A stretch of 64,000 nucleotides of DNA from an uncultured Burkholderiales bacterium (GTDB lineage Bacteria; Pseudomonadota; Gammaproteobacteria; Burkholderiales; Burkholderiaceae_C): contig CAIWAO010000067.1 in the NCBI GenBank assembly GCA_903910745.1, positions 1 to 64,000 on the forward strand. Reading direction: 5' to 3'. The position numbers were made by a program, and so were the translations under genes. Positions within the stretch are counted from its first letter, which is position 1. Each line of letters starts with the position of its first letter. A model generated the notes under the pieces. The model ran no database searches. It saw nothing but the letters and a program-made list of their open reading frames with translations, and was not told where the DNA came from. Below, piece by piece: positions 51,470-54,775 of this stretch.

Positions 51470-51643
51470 TCAAGCTTAAATTAATTACTTGAATGCGCGT
51501 TTTTTTTTGCACCTCCCCCCTGACTTAGGCTTATTTAGAACTACCACTAGTCAAAGTGTATCCAATTTCAAATCCGGCACTTTTGTACGCCTACAATGAA
51601 TGCTTGGTATTATTAATTGCCAACCCATTGGCAAGGAGAGATC

Positions 51644-53992
51644 ATGGCAACGGATAACAAATCAACTTCTATCACTCAAAGACCAAATTCAATGACTAAT
51701 GACCCCCACGAAGCCGCAAAACAAGAATTACGAAGAGCAGCACTTGAGTACCATGAATTTCCTACTCCAGGAAAAATCTCTGTTCAAGCCAGTAAACAGC
51801 TTGTTAATCAGCACGATTTGGCACTAGCTTATACACCTGGCGTCGCAGCGCCTTGCGAAGAAATAGTAAAAGACCCCAATGCTGCTTATCGTTATACAAG
51901 TCGAGGCAACTTAGTAGCCGTTATCACCAACGGAACTGCGGTCTTGGGTCTTGGAGATATTGGCCCATTAGCCTCAAAACCTGTCATGGAGGGTAAGGGG
52001 GTTTTATTTAAGAAGTTTGCTGGCATCGATGTTTTTGATATTGAAATCAACGAAAAAAATCTTGATAAATTAGTTGATACGATTGCGTCGCTTGAGCCCA
52101 CCTTTGGAGGCATTAATCTTGAAGACATCAAAGCTCCAGATTGCTTTTATGTTGAGCGCAAACTTCGTGAGAGAATGAAAATACCAGTCTTTCATGATGA
52201 CCAACACGGTACAGCGATCGTTGTTGGAGCCGCAATTATTAGTGGCCTTAGAGTTGTAGGTAAAGATATCAAAAAGGTTAAATTCGTGACTTCTGGAGCT
52301 GGCGCCGCTGCGCTAGCTTGTCTGAATCTACTTTTAAAGTTAGGGCTAGCTCGAGAGAATATTTTTGTTACCGATTTAGCTGGTGTGGTTTACAAGGGCA
52401 GAACAGAGCTCATGGATGAGGACAAAATTCAGTTTGCACAGGAAACAGATTCGCGCTCACTATCAGATGTGATTGAGGGCGCTGATGTTTTCTTGGGCCT
52501 ATCTGCTGGAGGTGTTCTAAAGCCTGAAATGGTCGCAAAGATGGCAGGAAAGCCTCTTATTCTTGCGCTTGCAAATCCTACCCCAGAGATTTTGCCTGAC
52601 GAGGTTGCTGCAGTGCGCTCAGATGCAGTCATGGCAACAGGCCGCTCTGATTACCCCAATCAGGTTAATAATGTTCTTTGTTTTCCCTATATCTTTAGAG
52701 GTGCGTTAGATGCAGGCGCATCTACTATTACAACGGAGATGGAAATAGCTGCTGTTTATGCCATTGCTGAATTAGCTCAAGCTGAGCAAAGTGAGGTGGT
52801 TGCCGCGGCCTACTCTGGGGAAGTTTTGGCGTTTGGTCCAGACTACTTAATCCCAAAACCTTTTGATCCTCGTTTAATGATCAAAATTGCACCTGCAGTA
52901 GCTAAAGCAGCACATGACAGCGGTGTTGCACAGCGACCCATTCAGGATTTTGAAGCTTACAAAGAAAAGTTACAAAGTTTTGTCTATGCTTCAGGCTCTG
53001 CAATGAAGCCTATTTACGAGGCTGCCAAAAAAGGATCAAAAAAGCGAGTAGCTTTTGCAGAGGGCGAGGATGAAAGGGTACTTCGTGCAGCTCAAATTGT
53101 TTTTGATGAAGGTCTTGCAACTCCGACGTTAATTGGACGCCCAGCCATAATTGCACAACGCATAGAACGATTTGGCTTGCGATTAAAAGAAGGAGTTAAC
53201 TACCAGGTGGTTAACGTTGAGCAAGATCCTAGGTACAAAGATTTTTGGCAAACCTACCTAAGTTTGACTGAGAGAAAAGGCGTCAATATCCAACTAGCCA
53301 AAATTGAGATGCGTAGGAGACTATCTCTTATCGGTGCAATGCTTTTACATAAAAACGAGGTTGACGGCTTAATCTGCGGAACTTGGAATACACCGACCGT
53401 TCATCTTAACTATATCGATGAAGTGATAGGACATAAACCAGGGGTGAGTACCTATGCCTGTATGAACCTTTTATTACTCCCAGAACGACAAGTTTTTCTA
53501 GTAGACACACACATCAATGTGAACCCAACAGCTGAGCAACTTTGTGAAATAACCATTATGGCGGCGCAAGAGATGCTGCGTTTTGGAATACAACCAAGAG
53601 CAGCACTTCTATCACATTCCAATTTTGGCTCAAGCAATGATGAGTCTGCACTGAAAATGCGTCAAACTCTTGGCTTATTAAAAGAGAGTGCGCCTTGGTT
53701 GGAGGTCGATGGTGAAATGCACGGCGACATGGCACTCGATACACATGCCAGAAAATCTTATATGCCTAGTTCGACACTCCACTCTGATGCAAATTTACTA
53801 GTGATGCCAAATCTTGACTCTGCAAATATTTCATACAACCTGTTAAAAGTAGCTGCAGGAGGTAATATTGCAGTAGGTCCAATTCTTCTCGGAGCCGCAA
53901 AACCTGTTCATATTCTGACTGCAAGCGCAACCGTAAGACGCATAGTCAATATGACAGCTCTAACGGTTGCAGATGCCAGCGCAGTAAGATAG
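51644..53992 (+). CDS. maeB: NADP-dependent malic enzyme with C-terminal phosphotransacetylase-like domain
   Basis: It decarboxylates malate to pyruvate with NADP reduction. The 782-residue protein has a malic domain ([59 protein letters not shown]), a Rossmann domain ([22 protein letters not shown]) up to about 430, and a C-terminal phosphotransacetylase-like domain ([20 protein letters not shown] to the end). In E. coli MaeB that domain is regulatory. The ORF track start TTG 51617 is replaced by ATG 51644, which has AAGGAG at 51633-51638. A hairpin follows the stop. Confidence 0.96.
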
Positions 53993-54023
53993 CCAAAAAA
54001 TGTAATTATTTTGGTTTCTTTTT
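53993..54023 (+). terminator. Rho-independent terminator at the maeB stop
   Basis: CCAAAA-AAT-GTA-ATT-A-TTTTGG begins right after the maeB stop codon and is followed by TTTCTTTTT. One unpaired A interrupts the stem. Confidence 0.65.
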
Positions 54024-54117
54024 AAGCCATAAGACCCCACTCATTACATATCTACTTGCCTTTTTACATGATTTCAGTCACACTACGCATTCGCTAGGTT
54101 CGCTTGGCTAGGTTGTT

Positions 54118-54149
54118 AACACAAATGTCTCACATTTGTGTTAGTTTTT
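54118..54149 (+). terminator. Second terminator or leader hairpin before the barstar-like gene
   Basis: AACACAAATGT (54118-54128) pairs perfectly with ACATTTGTGTT (54132-54142) over the loop CTC, followed by AGTTTTTA. The 11-bp stem is the most perfect in the window for its loop size. It lies 125 bases after maeB and 56 bases before the next gene's start, so it could stop readthrough or shape the leader of that gene. Confidence 0.7.
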
Positions 54150-54205
54150 AATTCACTTTTTTCGGTACTTTGTGCTATTTTTTAGGAAGTAGAACGGAGA
54201 TGGAA

Positions 54206-54775
54206 ATGCCACTTCGTAATGTAAAAACCAATATCGTCCAGTCCATCCGCGCTTTTAGAGTCGCAGATTTGCAAAACGCAGCGCAACAAATGGGTCACCA
54301 TTTTTTGTATGCGAATATTGCTGCCGCTCAAAGTAAGCAAGATGTTCTCGACATGATCGCCCATCAGTTCACTTTTCCCATGCATACCAGCAAGAGTTTT
54401 GACTCCTTGTACGATTGCATGACAGATCCACTTTATAAATCTGGCCCCCAACCAGGCTTTGTAGTTGTGCTTGAGCATATTCCTGCCCACTCAAAATTTG
54501 ATAAAGAGGCAAGAGAGCAATTGATTGATATTTTCCGAGAGGCCGCAGATTATTGGTCAGATCGTAAAATTTCTTTTCGATGCTTTTACTCTTTCTCCGT
54601 TGCAATTGCGCCCGTTATGGCCGGTGATAGACTCACAAATACACCAGATCCTGAAGGCATTAGCCTTCCAGAAGAGGGCGAAAAGATGCCTACCGATAAA
54701 TTAGTGGATGTATCACCTCTAGCTTTGAGAATGAGTAGCCCATTCAATGCAGGCTATTGGTTATCAGTAGCTTAA
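54206..54775 (+). CDS. Barstar-family (ribonuclease inhibitor-like) protein
   Basis: 189 residues. Residues about 32-130 fit the barstar fold: FLYANIAAAQSKQDVLDMIAH, then FPMHTSKSFDSLYDCMTD, then PGFVVVLEHI and the helix LIDIFREAADYWSD. Barstar D35 and D39, which contact the barnase active site, align with D66 and D70, and W38 with Y69. A C-terminal tail of about 60 residues (ending in PLALRMSSPFNAGYWLSVA) is not part of the fold. No ribonuclease gene is adjacent. Barstar-like proteins inhibit secreted or intracellular RNases or have unknown targets. The ATG at 54206 is chosen because GGAG lies six bases upstream; 54200 and TTG 54170 are less likely. Confidence 0.82.
   Translation: MPLRNVKTNIVQSIRAFRVADLQNAAQQMGHHFLYANIAAAQSKQDVLDMIAHQFTFPMHTSKSFDSLYDCMTDPLYKSGPQPGFVVVLEHIPAHSKFDKEAREQLIDIFREAADYWSDRKISFRCFYSFSVAIAPVMAGDRLTNTPDPEGISLPEEGEKMPTDKLVDVSPLALRMSSPFNAGYWLSVA

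Follow-up and report, generated by a model that had tools for sequence, protein, structure and literature searches.

An orphan barstar gene

The window, as we call the whole stretch of 64,000 nucleotides analysed here, comes from an uncultured Burkholderiales bacterium and carries a barstar-like gene beside which no ribonuclease is encoded. This raises the question of what an RNase inhibitor does when its RNase is missing, and where the long C-terminal tail of this protein comes from. A first-pass annotation, made from the letters alone, had noted an orphan barstar with conserved barnase-contact residues, a conserved-looking tail and a hairpin in the leader. We consider it probable that the gene is the orphan inhibitor of a barnase-barstar locus, with a tail that would be added by a predicted -1 frameshift in most relatives and is fixed in frame here. 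The features of the locus are the following.

51617..53992, + strand: upstream neighbour maeB, malic enzyme with PTA domain, syntenic with RNase-barstar
53993..54199, + strand: maeB-barstar intergenic region, the place of the RNase gene in relatives; remnant undetectable
54115..54145, + strand: 14-pair hairpin followed by a T-run, terminator-like
54200..54775, + strand: barstar-family protein with C-terminal tail, 191 aa (ORF, PF01337 match)
54299..54589, + strand: barstar domain, profile positions 2-95 of 96 (Pfam, AlphaFold2, Foldseek)
54383..54391, + strand: H62-T63-S64, part of the barnase-facing loop, H-F-G in RNase-carrying relatives (alignment)
54401..54415, + strand: D68 to D72, matching D35 and D39 of barstar, with Y71 between (alignment of relatives)
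54587..54604, + strand: Y-S-F-S-V-A junction, in-frame counterpart of the relatives' shift site
54599..54685, + strand: variable disordered linker, residues 134-162 (alignment, AlphaFold2)
54686..54772, + strand: conserved tail MPTDKLVDVSPLALRMSSPFNAGYWLSVA, consensus C-terminus W-L-x-A-A; once per genome, on barstar only

The Pfam Barstar profile (PF01337) matched residues 34-130 of the window protein with E=1.2e-22 and a score of 80.1 bits, compared to a curated cut-off of 23.4, and a whole-genome profile search found this to be the sole PF01337 gene of its genome. The open reading frame has ATG codons at 54200 and 54206 and ends with its stop codon at 54775; the aspartates first reported as D66 and D70, counted from 54206, are D68 and D72 when counted from 54200. 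They are equivalent to D35 and D39 of the barstar literature. Both residues were present in the alignment of relatives with the aromatic Y71 between them, as had been described. D68 was invariant across all groups compared, and D72 had frequencies of 1.00, 0.98 and 0.94 in the three groups. The barstar fold expected of the protein was also found in predictions: AlphaFold2 gave a pLDDT of about 90 over the domain, and Foldseek matched barnase-bound barstar 1bgs_E with a probability of 1.00 and a target TM of 0.73, E-values for barstar structures being weak (about 5e-3). The nearest named loci were from Limnohabitans and uncultured Burkholderiales. A further segment, N-I-V-Q-S-I-R-A (residues 11-18, 54230-54253), lies outside the Pfam match and is near-invariant family-wide.

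Loss of the RNase partner

When the whole genome of the window (2.87 Mb in 168 contigs, 98.8% complete) was searched for a barnase-type RNase, as the first-pass annotation had advised, no PF00545 candidate was found. The description as an orphan is thus correct for the locus and genome-wide. Control of a distant RNase, which had been offered as one possible role, finds no support, since the genome is without PF00545 and the cognate gene between maeB and barstar is gone. Among 301 genomes of the same GTDB family, presumably Burkholderiaceae in the GTDB sense, 296 had a barstar homologue and 270 had a PF00545 RNase. None of the four genomes of the window's genus, Limnohabitans, contained PF00545.

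The neighbours of homologues with the same tail, proposed earlier as worth surveying, were maeB - RNase - barstar or maeB - barstar. Among the loci read, the order with the RNase occurred at 137 loci in which the tail is either reached by a predicted shift (shift-type) or joined in frame (fused), and maeB stood straight before barstar at 40 RNase-less loci of the fused type. The RNase gene of relatives follows maeB and is usually separated from the downstream barstar by 25-175 bases, and the encoded RNases look intact, with signal-peptide-like N-termini and the motifs YREYTV and DHYASF. Two cysteines (R-I-V-C-G-G and C-Y-Y-T) are common in these barnase-type RNases, for example at loci L031 and L012, and could form a disulfide. 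A pseudogene of the RNase between maeB and barstar was considered, and no remnant was found in the 207-base intergenic region of the window. Judged from this synteny, what survives in the window is the inhibitor half of a chromosomal maeB - secreted RNase - barstar locus. By the same comparison, the RNase half is deleted in Limnohabitans and the loss is clean, maeB now abutting barstar.

The barnase-facing loop also differs where the RNase is lost. H62-F63-G64 was near-fixed in genes accompanied by an RNase and altered in the window protein and most RNase-less relatives; glycine at position 64 had a frequency of 0.95-0.98 with the RNase, compared to serine at 0.67 without it. This alteration bears on the reading, considered here unlikely, that the protein confers immunity to an RNase toxin that other bacteria deliver. 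Barstar homologues do serve as immunity proteins in general, and D68 and D72 are retained; against this stand the altered loop of the RNase-less group and the position of the gene at a chromosomal locus that keeps its synteny throughout the family and is no variable immunity island. A search for a CDI or RHS toxin as partner likewise argued against immunity, as no RHS repeats were found in the window genome. Three large TPS/type V exoproteins on other contigs (C143, C65 and C32 of genome G000; loci L295-L297) carry GLUG, MBG and YDG repeats and look like adhesins in which an RNase domain is absent, two of them running off contig ends. Spread by plasmids was rejected because close homologues were not plasmid-located and the best plasmid match had 38% identity, and PADLOC gave no match to a defence-system family.

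Could the gene simply be a leftover on its way out after the loss of the RNase? The partner is gone, as such decay would have it, but dN/dS between the window gene and its closest relatives was about 0.02 for the domain and about 0.03 for the tail, with synonymous sites near saturation, and the gene was kept in every sampled genome of the genus. We give decay next to no probability. Strong selection on domain and tail in bacteria lacking the RNase implies that the protein must serve a different function or bind a different partner.

Leader region

The hairpin with a T-run that had been noticed in the leader was located at 54115-54145. The two closest relatives have imperfect hairpins with T-runs at the same place and of different sequence, so that the hairpin may be the terminator of maeB or an attenuator. 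Upstream of the hairpin a conserved promoter-like string, TTGC[C/G]TTTT ... CA[C/T]A[A/C]T, was seen in the window (54050-54200) and at loci L111, L112, L114, L117, L118 and L124. A further short palindrome, CGGGTTNACCCG, is present in what is presumed to be the leader of the Limnohabitans relatives. The leader of barstar may be regulated.

A predicted -1 frameshift in most relatives

In most relatives the barstar frame ends C-F-Y-S-F-(L/Q/R/P)-stop, and the tail lies just downstream in the -1 frame. The shift site reads TAT TCT TTT CNG TAG CCC G, with UAG as the 0-frame stop, and reading on from TTT in the -1 frame gives F-S-V-A-R, the residues at the in-frame junction of window-type genes. 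This 19-mer, TATTCTTTTCNGTAGCCCG, occurred exactly once in each of 217 of the 301 family genomes (107 of 141 genera). The reversed 19-mer, used as a control, was found in none of these 301 genomes, and the 19-mer with at most one mismatch was absent from all 195 genomes sampled from the order's other families. That the stop arose by sequencing error was excluded because the sequence is identical in hundreds of genomes.

The tail behaves as coding sequence in the -1 frame. Complete -1 tails were stop-free in 129 of 129 cases, while the other two frames averaged 3.5 and 1.2 stops, and in the conserved tail block the entropy at -1 codon positions 1, 2 and 3 was 0.34, 0.15 and 0.98, which amounts to codon periodicity. 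The length of the linker differs among loci and the tail frame is always -1. At the shift site the codons themselves are fixed in shift-type genes (TAT 121/123, TCT 123/123, TTT 121/123, GTA 121/123), whereas fused genes use all synonyms at these codons, so the bias is confined to the shift type. One base alone varies, at the wobble position of the serine codon TCN in the -1 frame. The slip site T_TTT, found in 121 of 123 shift-type genes, permits -1 re-pairing. With a stimulator, U_UU.U belongs to the tetramers on which shifting in Escherichia coli is more frequent (PMC4066793). As UUUU is only a tetramer-class slip site, the efficiency of shifting may be low.

At shift-type loci an 11-bp stem begins at the G of the stop codon UAG. 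Pairing held in 99.1% of cells compared to 88.0 +/- 0.8 in shuffles and fell to about 43% when the stem was slid by one base. Covariation was 0.324 compared to 0.130 in shuffles, with none of 500 shuffles as high, and compensatory changes occurred at four pairs (U-A/C-G, G-C/C-G and C-G/A-U). The alignment of fused loci showed the stem to be absent there, and four shift-type loci had no match to a known RNA family in Rfam. In the window gene slip site, 0-frame stop and stem are all absent, and a single open frame reads TAC TCT TTC TCC GTT GCA. Slip codon, stop and covarying stem together appear to form the anatomy of programmed -1 frameshifting in most relatives, and from this conservation we infer that ribosomes would actually shift at U_UUU.

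Three side observations concern individual loci. At L037, L038, L044 and similar loci a pseudoknot is possible, in which loop GGGUCA would pair with UGGCCC 8-14 bases past the stem; this pairing is 6 bp (GGGUCA/UGGCCC, with GACCC variants) in one subgroup, and in the other it was not clearly above shuffles. At L035 and L201 (genera g34 and g51) barstar ends with UGA or UAA and TATTCTTTTCTGT is kept, while the downstream palindrome and the short -1 tail are different, perhaps those of a diverged cassette. At L039/L208 (genome G148) the 19-mer is present and the surrounding frames read oddly, perhaps owing to an assembly indel.

Two other explanations of the long form were weighed. The tail might be a separate small protein, with its own start or re-initiation past the barstar stop, that became fused in some lineages. 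Small overlapping ORFs are common, and in many tails there is an internal Met (MPTDK) with a purine-rich stretch encoding G-E-K ahead of it. However, several tails have no Met, the -1 relation held at every motif-bearing shift-type locus with linkers varying by threes, and the -1 frame stays open and under constraint all the way to the slip codon, at which there is no start codon. Nucleotide-level conservation extends to slip site, stop and covarying stem, and fused genes rebuild exactly F-S-V-A-R. A separate protein is therefore very unlikely. Transcriptional slippage, scarcely probable in our judgement, would produce the long form at the T run of the site, but this run has four T only, and neither the conserved adjoining hairpin nor the in-frame UAG would be expected. 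Ribosomal frameshifting is thus the reading followed below.

Evolution of shift, fused and tailless forms

Homologues from the order's other families terminate one residue past Y-S-F or have a short unrelated end. Since these are tailless, the tail looks like an innovation of the window's family. A tree of 230 domains, which has few columns and many open forks, requires at least 14 changes of form (shift, fused or none), of which 4-6 are forced by well-supported branches. Shift and fused forms occur together within three genera (g27, g28 and g122), and the tail is missing or divergent in some members of the family (g129, g51, g34 and g127). RNase-less loci comprised 36 distinct fused and 2 shift-type cases, in counts that ignore kinship, the latter two perhaps being truncated calls. 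As far as its reading frame indicates, the window's lineage is the in-frame, fixed version of the tail.

Conservation and possible function of the tail

The tail motif, MSS-x-F-(N/D)-x-x-(Y/M)-W-L-x-A-A, was found on barstar alone and once per genome in the genomes searched. That the tail looks conserved was well seen, as it is near-invariant in RNase-less relatives with a dN/dS of about 0.03: residues 175-187 were 97-100% identical in 34-36 of these, the adjacent position 174 being an exception. AlphaFold2 predicted residues 135 to 181 of the window protein as disordered and yielded no structure for the tail alone. Shift-type relatives have the hairpin-encoding A-R-S-x..Q-A-E-R-A at the linker position. 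The C-terminal A-A was present in 112 of 119 shift-type and 30 of 34 RNase-less genes and missing in 14 of 61 fused RNase-carrying genes; the window protein itself ends in V-A. Because the H-F-G loop is changed in RNase-less relatives and their tail is almost invariant, the tail seems to work without the RNase.

In most family members a UAG closes the barstar frame directly behind the barstar fold, and we propose that some ribosomes would slip by -1 on U_UUU, stimulated by the 11-bp hairpin that begins at the G of the stop. Such a slip would append a disordered tail of 50-75 residues with a conserved C-terminal motif, and as it would be partial, a short and a long inhibitor would both come from each shift-type locus. 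For the window's lineage and several more, the shift has given way to an in-frame join, leaving the long form as the sole product.

For the tail itself the leading candidate is a ClpXP-type degradation signal ending in Ala-Ala-COOH, which would set the lifetime of the long form. It is favoured because ClpXP recognition depends chiefly on a terminal Ala-Ala-COO- (PMC7652416), and we still put it somewhat below an even chance. The motif is short, with Leu at -4 where ssrA has it at -3; the fused RNase-carrying genes lacking A-A and the V-A terminus of the window protein do not favour it, and a degron would be odd in a toxin-less lineage making the long form only. About equally plausible is a tail that serves for localisation or partner binding, and a long barstar with a second, RNase-independent partner, serving which would be its sole job where the RNase is lost. 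Selection on tail and domain persists after that loss while the barnase-facing loop changes, and the conserved motif is longer than a bare Ala-Ala degron and is on no other protein in the genomes searched. On the other side, AlphaFold2 gave the isolated tail no structure and a partner did not emerge. Of the roles suggested by the first-pass annotation, a new partner fits best for the tail. More tentatively, the -1 shift may produce, in more than 100 genera, a short form that is stable and a long form that bears the tail and is perhaps protease-labile, with recoding tuning the inhibitor against the secreted RNase; fixing the tail in frame might then have given barstar an RNase-independent role and made the RNase dispensable.

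Known bacterial examples of cellular -1 frameshift genes are few. The barstar shift, if true, would be among the most conserved cellular cases, and it sits in a textbook inhibitor family. The gene looks regular in annotation because the stop codon ends the barstar fold, and many public barstar entries of this family are suggested to miss their C-terminus. In the main texts of the open-access literature searched, barstar was reported nowhere together with frameshifting or recoding and the arrangement of a tail added by a built-in frameshift was described nowhere, though large frameshift screens may list the cluster unnamed. Shift-type, in-frame and RNase-less relatives occur side by side in nature, sometimes in one genus, and offer ready-made comparisons that bear on the function of the tail, on why the shift is kept and on the role of barstar without its RNase.

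Comparison with known systems

The closest known system is barnase-barstar of Bacillus amyloliquefaciens and other PF00545/PF01337 pairs. The window protein has the barstar fold and the two aspartates in common with it, and the relatives have an adjacent barnase/RNase Sa-type gene with a signal-peptide-like N-terminus and matching catalytic motifs. The window's family differs in its N-terminal extension with invariant N-I-V-Q-S-I-R-A and in the C-terminal tail of 50-75 residues, reached via a predicted -1 frameshift or in frame, and the window's genus differs in missing the RNase.

The predicted cassette resembles the -1 cassettes of dnaX, copA and IS3-family transposases in its slip codon, nearby 0-frame stop and downstream stem-loop, and in two products with a common N-terminus, which are predicted here. 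Unlike them, it uses a single-tRNA U_UUU with UAG one codon on and a stem starting from the G of the stop, lies in an RNase-inhibitor gene, would give the longer product by shifting and is confined to one bacterial family as sampled. With the +1 frameshift of prfB it shares a conserved cellular frameshift, predicted in the case of barstar, that is replaced by an in-frame gene in some lineages; the barstar shift, however, would be -1, a conserved stem follows it, and a link like the autoregulation of the release factor is not apparent. The tail is like ssrA-type ClpXP degrons with Ala-Ala-COOH in being a disordered linker ending Ala-Ala with an aromatic at -5, and unlike them it has Leu at -4 instead of -3, is preceded by a longer conserved motif and is encoded in the gene itself.
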